Shown here: positions 22,936 through 28,662 of the stretch, piece by piece | Layout: every line of letters starts with the position of its first letter | Numbering within the stretch: position 1 is the stretch's first letter | Assembly (NCBI GenBank): GCA_002697255.1 | Contig: NZUH01000030.1 | Coordinates: 56,692-93,535 of the forward strand | Reading direction: 5' to 3' | Length of the DNA: 36,844 bases | Origin: Flavobacteriaceae bacterium | Lineage (GTDB): Bacteria; Bacteroidota; Bacteroidia; Flavobacteriales; Flavobacteriaceae | Notes under the pieces: generated by a model | Database searches by the model: none | The model's input: only the letters and a program-made list of their open reading frames with translations | What the model was told of the DNA's origin: nothing | Program-made: the position numbers and the translations under genes

Positions 22936-23580
22936 TTGAATAAAAAAGATAAAGTAATTTTTATAATAAAAAAACTTGAGGATTTATTTCCAGAAGTTCC
23001 TGTTCCATTAGACCATAATGATCCATATACTTTATTAATTGCTGTTCTTTTATCAGCTCAGTGCACTGACAAAAGAGTAAACACTGTAACACCAAAATTA
23101 TTTAAAATTGCTGATAATCCATTTGATATGGTTAATTTAACAATTGAAGAAATTAAAGAGATAATAAGACCTTGCGGGCTATCTCCAATGAAAAGCAAAG
23201 GGATTTTTGGTTTAAGTAAAATTATCATTAAAAAACATGACGGAAAAGTACCCCAATCTTTTGATGAATTGGAAGAACTTCCAGCCGTTGGTCATAAAAC
23301 AGCTAGTGTCGTAATGTCACAGGCTTTTGGACACCCTGCATTTCCGGTAGACACACATATTCATCGCTTAATGTTCAGGTGGGGATTAAGTAATGGGTCC
23401 AATGTCAAGCAAACAGAGAAAGATGCGAAAAGACTATTTCCGAAAGACAAATGGAATAAACTTCATTTACAAATTATATATTATGCAAGAAATTATTCAC
23501 CAGCTAGAGCATGGGATATAAATCGTGACATAATCACAAAAAAAATAGGAAGAAAATCTATTTTAAAAAAATTAGTTTAG
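22936..23580 (+). CDS. nth: Endonuclease III-like DNA glycosylase/AP lyase lacking the C-terminal Fe-S cysteine cluster (TTG start)
   Basis: LLSAQCTDKRVNTVTP, ELPAVGHKTASVVMSQAFGHPAFPVDTHIHRL (HhH Lys and catalytic Asp). The C-terminus NYSPARAWDINRDIITKKIGRKSILKKLV has no Cys. Confidence 0.93.
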   Translation: MNKKDKVIFIIKKLEDLFPEVPVPLDHNDPYTLLIAVLLSAQCTDKRVNTVTPKLFKIADNPFDMVNLTIEEIKEIIRPCGLSPMKSKGIFGLSKIIIKKHDGKVPQSFDELEELPAVGHKTASVVMSQAFGHPAFPVDTHIHRLMFRWGLSNGSNVKQTEKDAKRLFPKDKWNKLHLQIIYYARNYSPARAWDINRDIITKKIGRKSILKKLV

Positions 23581-23709
23581 ATTAATCAATGTAGTTTTAT
23601 CATTAACCCTAACCGATTTAATTGACTTTGAGTAGTTTATTAAAAAATTAATAGTTTTTCTTTTTGGTTCAAGAGAGATTATTTCTTGAAAAAAGTAGTT
23701 TTTTTCCAT
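23572..23709 (-). CDS. Small hypothetical protein (45 aa) downstream of the sigma factor; not in the ORF track
   Basis: Manual translation of the reverse strand from CAT 23707-23709 to TTA 23572-23574: MEKNYFFQEIISLEPKRKTINFLINYSKSIKSVRVNDKTTLINLN*. Confidence 0.6.
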   Translation of the reverse strand: MEKNYFFQEIISLEPKRKTINFLINYSKSIKSVRVNDKTTLINLN

Positions 23710-23758
23710 TCATAAATATTTCTATTTTGATAACGAAAAAAAAAAATAAAATATTATA

Positions 23759-24343
23759 TTAATTTGTTAAACTAATATTTTTATTTTTAATTATATTTCT
23801 AAGGTTTATTAAAGCATATCTCATTCTTCCAAGTGAAGTGTTTATACTTACACCTGTTTTTTCTGAAATTTCTTTAAAACTTAAATCATTGTAGTACCTA
23901 TAAACTAGAACTTCTTTTTGATCATTAGGCAAGAAATTAATTAATTTTTTTACCTCACTATGAATCTGATTTTTTATCATCTGATTTTCGATATCAATGT
24001 CAGAGTTTTTTAAAACAGAGAAAATATCAAAATCATGTGAATTTTCAAATTTTGGAATTCTCTTGTTTTTTCTAAAATGATCAATAACTAAATTGTGAGC
24101 AATTCTGGTTACCCAAGAAATAAATTTACCTTCTTCATTGTAATTACCCAATTTTAATGTTTTTATAACCTTTATAAAAGTATCTTGAAATATGTCTTCT
24201 GATAAATCTCTATCGTAAACTTTGGAATAAATAAAACTATAAATTCTTTGTTTATGACGTTTAAACAGAACTTCTAATGATTTTTCATCACCGGAAATAT
24301 ATTTAGAAACTAAAACTGAATCAGCAATAACAGATTTTTTCAT
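23759..24343 (-). CDS. ECF-type RNA polymerase sigma factor
   Basis: FKRHKQRIYSFIYSKVYDRDLSEDIFQDTFIKVIKTL (region 2), FLPNDQKEVLVYRYYNDLSFKEISEKTGVSINTSLGRMRYALINLR (region 4). Confidence 0.93.
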   Translation of the reverse strand: MKKSVIADSVLVSKYISGDEKSLEVLFKRHKQRIYSFIYSKVYDRDLSEDIFQDTFIKVIKTLKLGNYNEEGKFISWVTRIAHNLVIDHFRKNKRIPKFENSHDFDIFSVLKNSDIDIENQMIKNQIHSEVKKLINFLPNDQKEVLVYRYYNDLSFKEISEKTGVSINTSLGRMRYALINLRNIIKNKNISLTN

Positions 24344-24515: not shown

Positions 24516-27281
24516 ATGAAGATTTTATCAGGAAAAAATAAATCAATCGAAATAAAAGGGGCAAAAATGCATAACCTTAAAAATATTGATTTATCAATTC
24601 CAAAGAAAAAAATTATAGTAATCACAGGGGTTTCAGGAAGCGGAAAATCATCATTAGCATTTGACACAATTTATGCTGAAGGACAAAGGAAATATGTTGA
24701 AAGCCTATCCAGTTATGCAAGACAATTCCTTGAAAGAATAGAAAAACCAAAAGTGGATAAAATATGTGGGCTTTCACCTGCAATAGCTTTAGAACAAAAA
24801 ATCTCCTCTTCTAACCCAAGGTCTACAGTTGGAACTAAAACTGAAATTTATGATTACCTAAAACTATTTTTTTCTAGATATGGTGAAATATATTCACCTA
24901 TTTCTGGAAAAATAGTTAAAAAAAATACTGTTTCTGAAATTATTGATGATTTAAAAAAACAAAAAAAAGGTGATAAAGTTTTAATCTTATCAAAATTAGA
25001 AAAAATTAATAAAGAAAATTTTGACAAAAAAATAAAATCTCTTAAAAATCAAAATTATAATAGAATTTTATCAAATGATAAAGTTTTGAAAATTAATAAT
25101 ATTGTAGATTCTGAAATTAATAATTATGATGAATTGTTCCTTGTAATAGATAGGATAATATGCAATAATTCTGAAGAATATCTTAACAGAATAGCCGACT
25201 CTATTGAAAATACTATCTATGAATCTAAAGGGAAATGTATAATAAAAAACATTTCTACAAATAAAACCTTTAAATATAATACAAGACTTGAAATGGATGG
25301 TATTTTGTTTGAAAATCCTGATACAAACTTTTTTAGCTTTAACAATCCACATGGAGCGTGCGAAAAATGTAAAGGATACGGAGATATTGTTGGAATTGAT
25401 GAAAAACTTGTCGTTCCTAACACATCTCTTTCTGTATATGATGGGGCTATATTTCCATGGAGGGGAAAAAAACTAAGTAAATACAAAAATTTATTTATCA
25501 AAAATTCTTTAGAAAATGGCTTTCCTATTCATAAAGCATATAACAGTTTAAATAAAGATCAAAAAAAACTTTTATGGAATGGAAGTGAAAAAGTTTTTGG
25601 GATAAATAATTTTTTTGAAAAACTTGAAGCTAAAATGTATAAAATACAAAACAGGGTATTACTTTCAAGATATAGAGGTAAAACAAAATGTGACAGCTGT
25701 GAAGGAAATAGACTTAAAAAAGAGGCAGGATATATAAAAATCAATAATAAAAACATATTTGATTTAATAAACATGCAATTAATTGATTTAGATCTATTTA
25801 TGAGAGAAATTAATCTTAAAAATTGTAGAATCTTAAATGAAATAATTGATAGAATTGGTTGTTTAAATGACCTAGGATTAGGATATTTGACACTTAACAG
25901 AAAGTCTTCAACTCTTTCCGGGGGCGAATCACAACGTATTAACTTAGCAACATGTATAGGAAGCAATCTAACTGGATCTCTTTATGTTTTGGATGAACCA
26001 AGTATTGGGTTACATTCTCACGACACAAAAAAATTAATAAAAATTTTAAAAAAATTAAAAAATCTCGGAAATACCGTTATTGTTGTAGAACATGATGATG
26101 AAATTATAAGATCAGCAGATTATATTTTTGATATTGGACCTAACGCTGGATCCCTTGGTGGTTATTTAGTTGGTCAAGGAGAGTTTAATGAATTTATAAA
26201 ATCTAATACGTTAACGGCTAAATATTTAAAAAATGAATTGAATATATCTTTACCTAATAAAGAAAGATTATCAAAAAATTATATAAATATTTATGGTATA
26301 AGAGAAAATAATCTTAAAAATATTAATGTTAGCTTTCCATTAAATAAATTTGTTACAATAACTGGAGTTTCTGGTTCTGGAAAAAGCACCCTGATAAATA
26401 AAATACTATATCCTGCAATTTTAAATAATCTAAAAGATTTTTCAAAAAAACCTGGCGAATTTGATAAAATATCAGGAAATATAGAAAAAATAGAATTTGT
26501 CGAATATATTAGTCAAAAAGCTATCGGGAAATCATCAAGATCAAACCCTGTTACATATATTAAAGCATACGATGAAATCAGAAAACTATTTGCATCAATA
26601 AGGGAAAGTAAATTAAGGTACTATAAGCCAAAACATTTTTCATTTAATGTTGAAGGAGGCAGATGCACGCATTGTAAAGGTGATGGTACAATATCAATAG
26701 AAATGCAATTCATGCCAGATGTCACACTGCAGTGTGAAAATTGTAATGGCAAAAGATTCAAAAAAGAAATTCTAGAAATTAAATTTTTTAATAAAAATAT
26801 TTCAGAAATTCTGAATTTAACGGTTGATAATGCAGTAGTTTTTTTTAAAGAAAACAATGAAACAAAAATAAGCAAGAAATTAGAAGTATTACAAAATGTT
26901 GGTTTGGGATATATAAAATTAGGACAAAGCTCATCTACACTTTCTGGTGGAGAAGCTCAAAGAATTAAATTAGCTTATTTTTTAAGTATAAAAAATAAAG
27001 CTAAAAATGGTTTATTTTTATTTGACGAACCAACAACTGGGTTACACTATGATGATATAAACAAACTAGTAACTTCAATAAATGAAATTATTGATGTTGG
27101 TAATTCTGTTATTATTATCGAACACAATTTAGAGTTAATTAAATGTTCTGATCATATAATTGACCTTGGACCATATGCTGGAGAAAATGGAGGAGAACTA
27201 ATTTTCAGTGGTAATCTTAAAGATTTAATTAAACAAAATAGTTTAACAGGTCAAAGTGTGAAAAGTAGTTTTATAAAATAG
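24516..27281 (+). CDS. uvrA: Excinuclease ABC subunit A
   Basis: VTGVSGSGKSSLAFDTIYAEGQRKYVESLSSYARQFLE, CEKCKGYGDI, STLSGGESQRINLA, VTGVSGSGKSTLINKIL-like second Walker A, RCTHCKGDGTISIEMQFMPDVTLQCENCNGKRF. Confidence 0.96.
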   Translation: MKILSGKNKSIEIKGAKMHNLKNIDLSIPKKKIIVITGVSGSGKSSLAFDTIYAEGQRKYVESLSSYARQFLERIEKPKVDKICGLSPAIALEQKISSSNPRSTVGTKTEIYDYLKLFFSRYGEIYSPISGKIVKKNTVSEIIDDLKKQKKGDKVLILSKLEKINKENFDKKIKSLKNQNYNRILSNDKVLKINNIVDSEINNYDELFLVIDRIICNNSEEYLNRIADSIENTIYESKGKCIIKNISTNKTFKYNTRLEMDGILFENPDTNFFSFNNPHGACEKCKGYGDIVGIDEKLVVPNTSLSVYDGAIFPWRGKKLSKYKNLFIKNSLENGFPIHKAYNSLNKDQKKLLWNGSEKVFGINNFFEKLEAKMYKIQNRVLLSRYRGKTKCDSCEGNRLKKEAGYIKINNKNIFDLINMQLIDLDLFMREINLKNCRILNEIIDRIGCLNDLGLGYLTLNRKSSTLSGGESQRINLATCIGSNLTGSLYVLDEPSIGLHSHDTKKLIKILKKLKNLGNTVIVVEHDDEIIRSADYIFDIGPNAGSLGGYLVGQGEFNEFIKSNTLTAKYLKNELNISLPNKERLSKNYINIYGIRENNLKNINVSFPLNKFVTITGVSGSGKSTLINKILYPAILNNLKDFSKKPGEFDKISGNIEKIEFVEYISQKAIGKSSRSNPVTYIKAYDEIRKLFASIRESKLRYYKPKHFSFNVEGGRCTHCKGDGTISIEMQFMPDVTLQCENCNGKRFKKEILEIKFFNKNISEILNLTVDNAVVFFKENNETKISKKLEVLQNVGLGYIKLGQSSSTLSGGEAQRIKLAYFLSIKNKAKNGLFLFDEPTTGLHYDDINKLVTSINEIIDVGNSVIIIEHNLELIKCSDHIIDLGPYAGENGGELIFSGNLKDLIKQNSLTGQSVKSSFIK

Positions 27282-27283
27282 TT

Positions 27284-27299
27284 TGGCACGCAGTTTGTA
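27284..27299 (+). promoter_or_regulatory. Sigma-54-like -24/-12 promoter element TGGCACG-N4-TTGTA
   Basis: Direct reading: TGGCACGCAGTTTGTA, with GG-to-G spacing as in the TGGCACGN4TTGCW consensus. One mismatch (GT instead of GC at -12). Confidence 0.45.
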
Positions 27300-27341
27300 T
27301 AATGTATATTGGTTAGTTTAATTTATTGAATAGTTAGTTTG

Positions 27342-27380
27342 AGCCCCGTATCTTTCCTTAATTTACGGGGCTTTTTATTT
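27342..27380 (+). terminator. Intrinsic terminator: AGCCCCGTA / TACGGGGCT stem, 13-nt loop, T-rich tail CTTTTTATTTTATT
   Basis: Direct reading: 9-bp perfect GC-rich stem (27342-27350 with 27364-27372) followed by a U-tract on the + strand only. Confidence 0.85.
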
Positions 27381-27387
27381 TATTACA

Positions 27388-28662
27388 TCACAAACTATTA
27401 ATAATTTTTACCATATCTTTTGTTAATTCTTTTCTACTGTATTTTTCTAGATTTATTGGTGAGATTATATTAGATCCCATTTTAAATTTATTATAAGATT
27501 CTAAAATATAATTATATACTAGATCTAATTCTTTATAATTATAAAAATCACCTGTATTAGTTTTGTTTAAAATAGAAGATACTTCAGAATTATTTGGTCC
27601 TATGGCCAATATTGGTCTATTAGAATTTAAATAATCATAAAACTTGCCTGGAACAGCATATGATGATTCTATATCATTTACCTCAATCATCAATAATAAT
27701 TGACTCCTACATACATAATCAATAGTCTTTTCATAATCAACATAACCATAATAATTAATACATTTTGCAAAAATTTTTGACTTAAGATTATTTTTAAATT
27801 CTTGATCAACATTTCCAACAAAATTTAACTTTAAATCATTTATAAAACCACTTATATTTATACATAATTTTTCTATAGCCAACCATAGAATTTTAGGATT
27901 CCTATCTGGATATATAGAGCCAACATGAGAAATCGAAAATTGTTTGTCCAATTTAATGTCTTTACGAAAATAATCGTAACCGTTGGTAACTTTAAAATTA
28001 TTTTTAGAAATAGTATCAAAATAGATTTTTAGTTTTTTTGAAGTTGTAATTATCGCATCGGCATTATTTAAAACACCATCTCTATATTTTTTATGAATTT
28101 TCTTAGTATACTTTAGAAGATGAAATCTTTGTAAATAATTTAATTTTAACCATGGATCACGAAAATCTGCTATCCATTTTATATTTAATTTATTTTTTAG
28201 ATCTAGTCCAATTAAATGGATACTATGAGGTGGACCAGTAGTGATTATAGTTTCTATACTATTTTTAATTATGTATTTTTTGAGAAAATTAACAGAGGTT
28301 TTTCTCCAAAATATTTTCATGTCAGGAATAAATAAATTGCCTCTCAAAAAAAATAACATCTTTTGAAAAAAAGATTGATTAATTTTATTTTTCACATTAC
28401 CTTTTCTAATGTTATTTAAATATTTATTATTTCCAAAAATTGAGGATAACTCAAAAATAGGATGTCTTATAATATTTAAATCTTTGATTATATGATTATT
28501 AAGTGAATAATCATACACTGGATAATTTGGTTTATCGGGAACAAAAAAAGTCGGCTCAATACCATTTTCTGGAAAATACTTAGCAAATTTCATCCACCTC
28601 TGCACTCCAGGACCTCCAGCCGGAGGCCAATAGTATGAAATAATTAAAACTTTTTTTCTCAA
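27388..28662 (-). CDS. Glycosyltransferase (GT4-like)
   Basis: VLIISYYWPPAGGPGVQRWMKFAKYFPENGIEPTFFVPD, WIADFRDPW, FSISHVGSIYPDRNPKILWLAIEKL. Confidence 0.88.
   Translation of the reverse strand: MRKKVLIISYYWPPAGGPGVQRWMKFAKYFPENGIEPTFFVPDKPNYPVYDYSLNNHIIKDLNIIRHPIFELSSIFGNNKYLNNIRKGNVKNKINQSFFQKMLFFLRGNLFIPDMKIFWRKTSVNFLKKYIIKNSIETIITTGPPHSIHLIGLDLKNKLNIKWIADFRDPWLKLNYLQRFHLLKYTKKIHKKYRDGVLNNADAIITTSKKLKIYFDTISKNNFKVTNGYDYFRKDIKLDKQFSISHVGSIYPDRNPKILWLAIEKLCINISGFINDLKLNFVGNVDQEFKNNLKSKIFAKCINYYGYVDYEKTIDYVCRSQLLLMIEVNDIESSYAVPGKFYDYLNSNRPILAIGPNNSEVSSILNKTNTGDFYNYKELDLVYNYILESYNKFKMGSNIISPINLEKYSRKELTKDMVKIINSL

Follow-up and report, generated by a model that had tools for sequence, protein, structure and literature searches.

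In the small genome of a marine flavobacterium, the short gap between the DNA-repair gene uvrA and its convergent neighbour raises the question of whether it simply ends the uvrA transcript or holds a small RNA gene of its own. In the window, by which we mean the whole 36.8 kb stretch of DNA that was analysed, uvrA lies at 24516–27281 on the + strand (921 aa; Pfam UvrA_inter and UvrA_DNA-bind) and is the upstream neighbour of the candidate RNA gene, which begins in the immediate 3′ flank of the uvrA stop codon (TAG, 27279–27281). The convergent neighbour (27388–28662, − strand) lies outside the RNA gene and is without a Pfam match; the first-pass annotation took it to be a glycosyltransferase gene. 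We consider it very probable that the uvrA flank carries its own promoter for a sigma-54-dependent stress small RNA, and that this RNA probably acts by base-pairing.

Promoter, predicted RNA gene and terminator

There is a sigma-54-type promoter at 27283–27297 with the layout TTGGCACG-N3-TTTG. The −24 element TTGGCACG (27283–27290, + strand) belongs to the best-scoring class in the genome, and the −12 element (27294–27298, + strand) is TTTG followed by T in place of the consensus C. TTGGCA and TTTG are each unchanged across all 13 aligned loci. The first-pass annotation had read TGGCACG-CAGT-TTG-TA from 27284, just after the uvrA stop, with GG...G correctly spaced and a single mismatch in the −12 element (C to T), and this reading holds. 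The promoter is the single site in the window with no more than one mismatch to TGGCACGN4TTGCA. When sigma-54 sites were scored genome-wide by a weight-matrix scan of 1.51 Mb, it reached 20.7, the joint best score in the genome, and TTTGGCACGNNNTTTG occurs only twice in the sequence scanned. The −12 C is replaced by T or A in most copies (the copy at L112 keeps C), and this may make for a weak promoter.

A variable spacer (27299–27309, + strand; 45% mean identity within the genus) separates the promoter from the predicted transcription start at 27310–27311 (+ strand), which would be 12–13 nt past the −12 position. The distance from the −12 G to the conserved core is 13 nt, and once 14 nt; its length is fixed and its sequence is not. 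Judged from the −12 element, a sigma-54 start would fall no more than 1 nt from the point where conservation sets in. A start near 27310 had been proposed earlier, and the opening of the conserved block there at a fixed spacing is consistent with it.

The predicted small RNA gene (27311–27376, + strand, about 65 nt) was recognized in 21 genomes in all by the covariance models R1 and R2 together with core matches. Its first 27 nt, GGTTAGTTTAATTTATTGAATAGTTAG (27311–27337, + strand), form a core that does not vary among the 11 genus genomes that have it and is the candidate pairing region. The core holds two copies of GUUAG, with GUUAGU invariant at both sites, and a weak 6 bp hairpin is predicted within it (27316–27321 with 27326–27331). 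Two core substitutions in g172 genomes leave this weak 5′ stem paired, which gives the hairpin mild support. A putative gene of about 65 nt with conserved promoter, core and terminator agrees well with the RpoN-controlled transcript of roughly 60–70 nt that had been suggested. The accompanying remark that the gap contains no ORF beyond a few codons stands in so far as none is longer than 20 codons, but one TTG-initiated frame reaches 20 aa; it crosses the terminator and is the only ORF of this length or more to overlap the gap.

The intrinsic terminator is a GC-rich hairpin of 10 bp (27341–27373, + strand), in which 27341–27350 pairs with 27364–27373 around a loop containing UCUUUCCU; the U-tract TTTTTATTTT (27372–27381, + strand) lies at the stem end. 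A GC-rich hairpin with a U-tract had been described here, correctly except that the stem was given as 9 bp. It had also been the only strong terminator noticed in the window, and we found no second strong hairpin-plus-U-tract there. The loop, at more than 8 nt, was too long for the hairpin to be picked up by a simple terminator scan. Stem sequence and length vary between genera, yet pairing holds in every copy: across 17 sequences from three genera, 100% of cells are paired, two-sided changes occur at five pairs, and neither any of 500 shuffles nor any slid register reaches the covariation score. In folding energy the copies lie 2.3 to 5.4 sd below shuffles. This pattern argues for a terminator maintained by selection, which uvrA transcripts may share. 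A UCUUUCCU-like stretch is kept in the loop of most copies, with the variants UCUAUCCU (L002), UCUUCCUU (L010) and UCUUUGUG (some g172 copies).

The gap downstream of uvrA had been described as the only real one between convergent genes in the window. This is not so, as the ORFs 22936–23580 (+ strand) and 23759–24343 (− strand) are separated by 178 bp. No strong terminator was detected in this second gap (23581–23758). The ORF at 23759–24343 is an ECF sigma factor gene (Sigma70_r2 and r4) that is divergent from uvrA and 172 bp from it. There is also a second uvrA paralogue in the genome (G000:C31:6159–8954), with 46% identity to the uvrA of the window.

Conservation and distribution

The same arrangement is repeated 3′ of the uvrA orthologues of the genus: TTTGGCAC[G/A]-N3-TTTG, 13–14 variable bases, GGTTAGTTTAATTTATTGAATAGTTAG and a hairpin. 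An alignment of these flanks, which had been suggested as a check, thus finds the −24/−12 motif and the hairpin co-conserved behind uvrA in relatives. The mean identity among 11 genomes (55 pairs) is 100% for the core but 44.5% for the 13-nt spacer, 41% for the four-fold sites of uvrA and 79% for the UvrA protein. Spacer and four-fold sites are near saturation while the core is unchanged. This points to strong constraint on the promoter boxes and the core, and on the spacer in its length only.

The 27-nt core is present as one copy with zero mismatches in 11 of the 21 genus genomes. These are exactly the genomes in which this uvrA copy was found; uvrA and the RNA are jointly absent from the other ten. 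The latter are 56–80% complete, and the probability of ten or more being missing is about 0.05. Because uvrA and the RNA are missing together and the genomes are incomplete, the absences are probably assembly gaps. The named records of the genus are uncultured single-cell or metagenome assemblies.

Outside the genus, a covariance model of the RNA gave three convincing matches in 400 family genomes, each with a TTGGCA...TTTG promoter and a AGTTAGTTTAATTTATT core and all behind uvrA (66–69% aa identity). A model that includes the promoter places the RNA in 5 of 5 g172 genomes and 5 of 6 g156 genomes, although four of the five g156 carriers were counted from the model match alone. In an order-level draw of 398 genomes the home genome was the only match, and with R1 and R2 there was no convincing homologue beyond three small-genome genera among the 400 family and 398 order genomes. 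The total is 21 genomes in three genera of Flavobacteriaceae, all carriers being 1.1–1.6 Mb in size, and a uvrA orthologue is directly upstream of the RNA in every genome for which flanking DNA was read. Conservation in 21 genomes excludes a chance match.

The model matches L223–L233, in other Flavobacteriaceae, are weaker and without a TTGGCA box and were judged to be chance. At L224, L225, L226 and L227 there are GGTTAGTT/GGTTGGTT-rich stretches just before terminators, with no sigma-54 box; these may be chance or other small RNAs. A search of Rfam 15 with the RNA gave no family above its gathering threshold. The best weak match was to the trpB motif, which scored 22.2 bits where the cut-off is 59, and the resemblance is terminator-like only. 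On the sequence evidence, the predicted sigma-54-type small RNA gene is real and is uncatalogued in Rfam 15.

The same data bear on other explanations of the locus. The hairpin could be a plain uvrA terminator, the conserved segment a uvrA 3′ UTR element and the promoter match chance, as the first-pass annotation had offered by way of alternative. The position of the hairpin would suit the termination of uvrA transcripts, and in all genomes in which the flank was read the segment is behind uvrA. However, TTGGCA-N6-TTTG is invariant in 13 loci while the spacer between promoter and core has diverged, a combination that contradicts a chance promoter, and a 3′ UTR element has no need for a sigma-54 promoter at a fixed spacing to the onset of conservation. 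As the segment is also absent behind other Flavobacteriaceae uvrA genes, we regard this explanation as very unlikely. It is highly improbable that the RNA is made from a housekeeping sigma-A promoter, TTGGCA-16-TATATT (27283–27310): the match is 10 of 12 to a consensus of the E. coli type, but the TATATT half lies inside the variable spacer and is missing in relatives, 121 such matches were found against 113 expected, and there is no conserved Bacteroidetes TANNTTTG −7 element at the site. Finally, invariance of the core at the DNA level would suit a conserved DNA site, for integration or protein binding, that is not transcribed. This we find scarcely credible, since there is a single copy per genome and since the two sides of the terminator stem have both changed and still pair, which points to RNA.

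Probable sigma-54 regulon and candidate targets

RpoN, the presence of which had been named as a prerequisite, is encoded in the genome and was found in 19 of the 21 incomplete genus genomes. There are two sigma-54 activators in the genome, with the loops GAFTGA and GSFTGA; one has a receiver domain and the other adjoins an lptE-like gene. The two top sites in the genome (20.7 each) are the RNA promoter and the site of a fasciclin-domain lipoprotein gene, and good sites also precede htpG, grpE, dnaK, groES and lon. Among 1335 gene upstream regions, htpG, grpE and dnaK are among the next best, and the probability that the top 10 would include three chaperone genes is about 3.5e-5. The ranking in a second genome also places fasciclin, grpE and groES close to the top, and the weaker site of lon is kept there. 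The sigma-54 regulon of Flavobacterium psychrophilum, as determined by 5′-end mapping, includes GroES/EL, Lon, DnaK, DnaJ, HtpG, ClpB and the sRNA Rfp36 (PMC9723704). The chaperone and protease sites match this regulon, so that, to judge by motif scores, the RNA most likely belongs to a sigma-54 protein-quality-control (heat-shock) regulon.

Two further genes deserve mention. The fasciclin-domain lipoprotein gene (G000:C3:9474–10495, within L179) shares the strongest sigma-54 promoter, and its G006 orthologue has one too. A proteorhodopsin-like gene (G000:C8:15892–16675, − strand, within L184), followed by a Blh-like gene, has a TGGCAT-N4-TTTG sigma-54-like box and a AAATTAAAC leader that are conserved in 12 genus genomes; stress control of proteorhodopsin is possible.

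We propose that RNA polymerase with sigma-54, triggered by one of the two activators, would start at about 27310/27311 and produce an RNA of about 65 nt that ends at the hairpin and U-tract. The AU-rich 5′ part, GGUUAGUUUAAUUUAUUGAAUAGUUAGU, would then pair in trans with mRNA leaders, and this pairing would lower translation during stress. We infer the transcription and the pairing mode; the targets are speculative.

In a scan of the 28-nt core against 688 orthologous leader pairs, the only outlier was trhO (yceA). Its duplex is the best by far (−21.1 and −24.1 kcal/mol, with 0 of 150 shuffles as good) but is not co-conserved, and we rejected it as a target. The trhO start ATGCAACTGTACAATAAATTAAG is present in RNA-less genomes and is altered in several carriers despite the fixed core. 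Because the site does not track the RNA, the match has probably arisen by coincidence at a gene start that is conserved independently of the RNA. At the nucleotide level, the first 23 nt of trhO (ATGCAACTGTACAATAAATTAAG; G000:C13:45010 and orthologues) are conserved across many Flavobacteriaceae, with CTG and TAC codons that look rare in AT-rich genomes, and this conserved start may be a regulatory element.

Conserved exact complementarity to leaders (−40 to +10) was found in 27 pairs for 8-mers against a shuffled-core mean of 9.9 (reached by 31 of 1000 shuffles), and in 10 against 2.7 for 9-mers (reached by 36 of 1000). This is an empirical p of about 0.03, a borderline signal in AT-rich leaders. 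It comes from UUAGUUUAAUUU in the core facing AAATTAAAC in the leaders. The latter is the commonest of 218 9-mers of the same composition in leaders (16 occurrences against 4.8 in shuffled leaders), and among the genes with a conserved copy in the leader are two TonB-receptor-like genes and those for proteorhodopsin, a cytochrome oxidase subunit and LptE; these genes were named by reading their sequences and not by a profile search. Leader pairing via UUAGUUUAAUUU is suggestive at best. The loop UCUUUCC was rejected as a seed, complementary leaders not being in excess (7-mers, 1 against 1 in the control; 6-mers, 15 against 24). A crude pattern search found no Hfq- or RRM-like proteins.

It is doubtful, but conceivable, that UUAGUUUAAUUU pairs with the AAAUUAAAC leaders of abundant membrane proteins (TonB receptors, proteorhodopsin, cytochrome oxidase and LptE), which would make the RNA a sigma-54 counterpart of the sigma-E-dependent MicA and RybB, with no Hfq-like protein seen. 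It is likewise rather unlikely that the RNA does not pair with mRNA at all but binds a protein, in the manner of a decoy, through the two GUUAG copies that flank the weak hairpin. The invariance of GUUAGU at both sites, the persistence of the 5′ hairpin in g172 and the weak support for pairing targets are in keeping with this, but there are just two motif copies and the crude pattern search found no RNA-binding partner. A small RNA that pairs with mRNA leaders is the reading that we prefer.

Relation to known regulatory RNAs

In enteric bacteria the sigma-E-dependent MicA, RybB and MicL likewise link small RNAs to a stress sigma factor that controls chaperones and proteases, and MicL also originates at the 3′ end of a gene. 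The damping of abundant envelope proteins is a possible common logic. However, the sigma factor is a different one, there is no sequence relation, and the targets of the uvrA-flank RNA are candidates only. CrcZ of Pseudomonas has repeated CA-rich Hfq/Crc sites, of which there are none in the uvrA-flank RNA. The two are alike as small RNAs under an RpoN-type activator, CrcZ being CbrB/RpoN dependent (PMC6296734). GlmY of E. coli is also an sRNA with a sigma-54 promoter, which is activated by QseF and has a link to the cell envelope (PMC6075780), but it gave no sequence match in the Rfam scan, is a RapZ decoy, is longer and has other neighbouring genes. Among flavobacterial RNAs, Rfp36 of F. psychrophilum is likewise a putative regulatory RNA with a sigma-54 / SM4 promoter, and its start has been mapped (PMC9723704); the likeness is drawn from its published description. 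Rfp18 of the same species is also conserved between species and strongly structured, but by its description it has at least three stem-loops and regulates proteases (PMC9723704).

Post-transcriptional control is nearly unexplored in Bacteroidota, above all in the streamlined ocean flavobacteria, which are known largely through single-cell and metagenome assemblies. A strictly conserved small RNA that appears to be tied to a sigma-54 stress regulon is something definite to seek in marine metatranscriptomes. It would also support the idea that, in flavobacteria, sigma-54 fills the heat-shock or envelope-stress role of the enteric sigma-32 and sigma-E.
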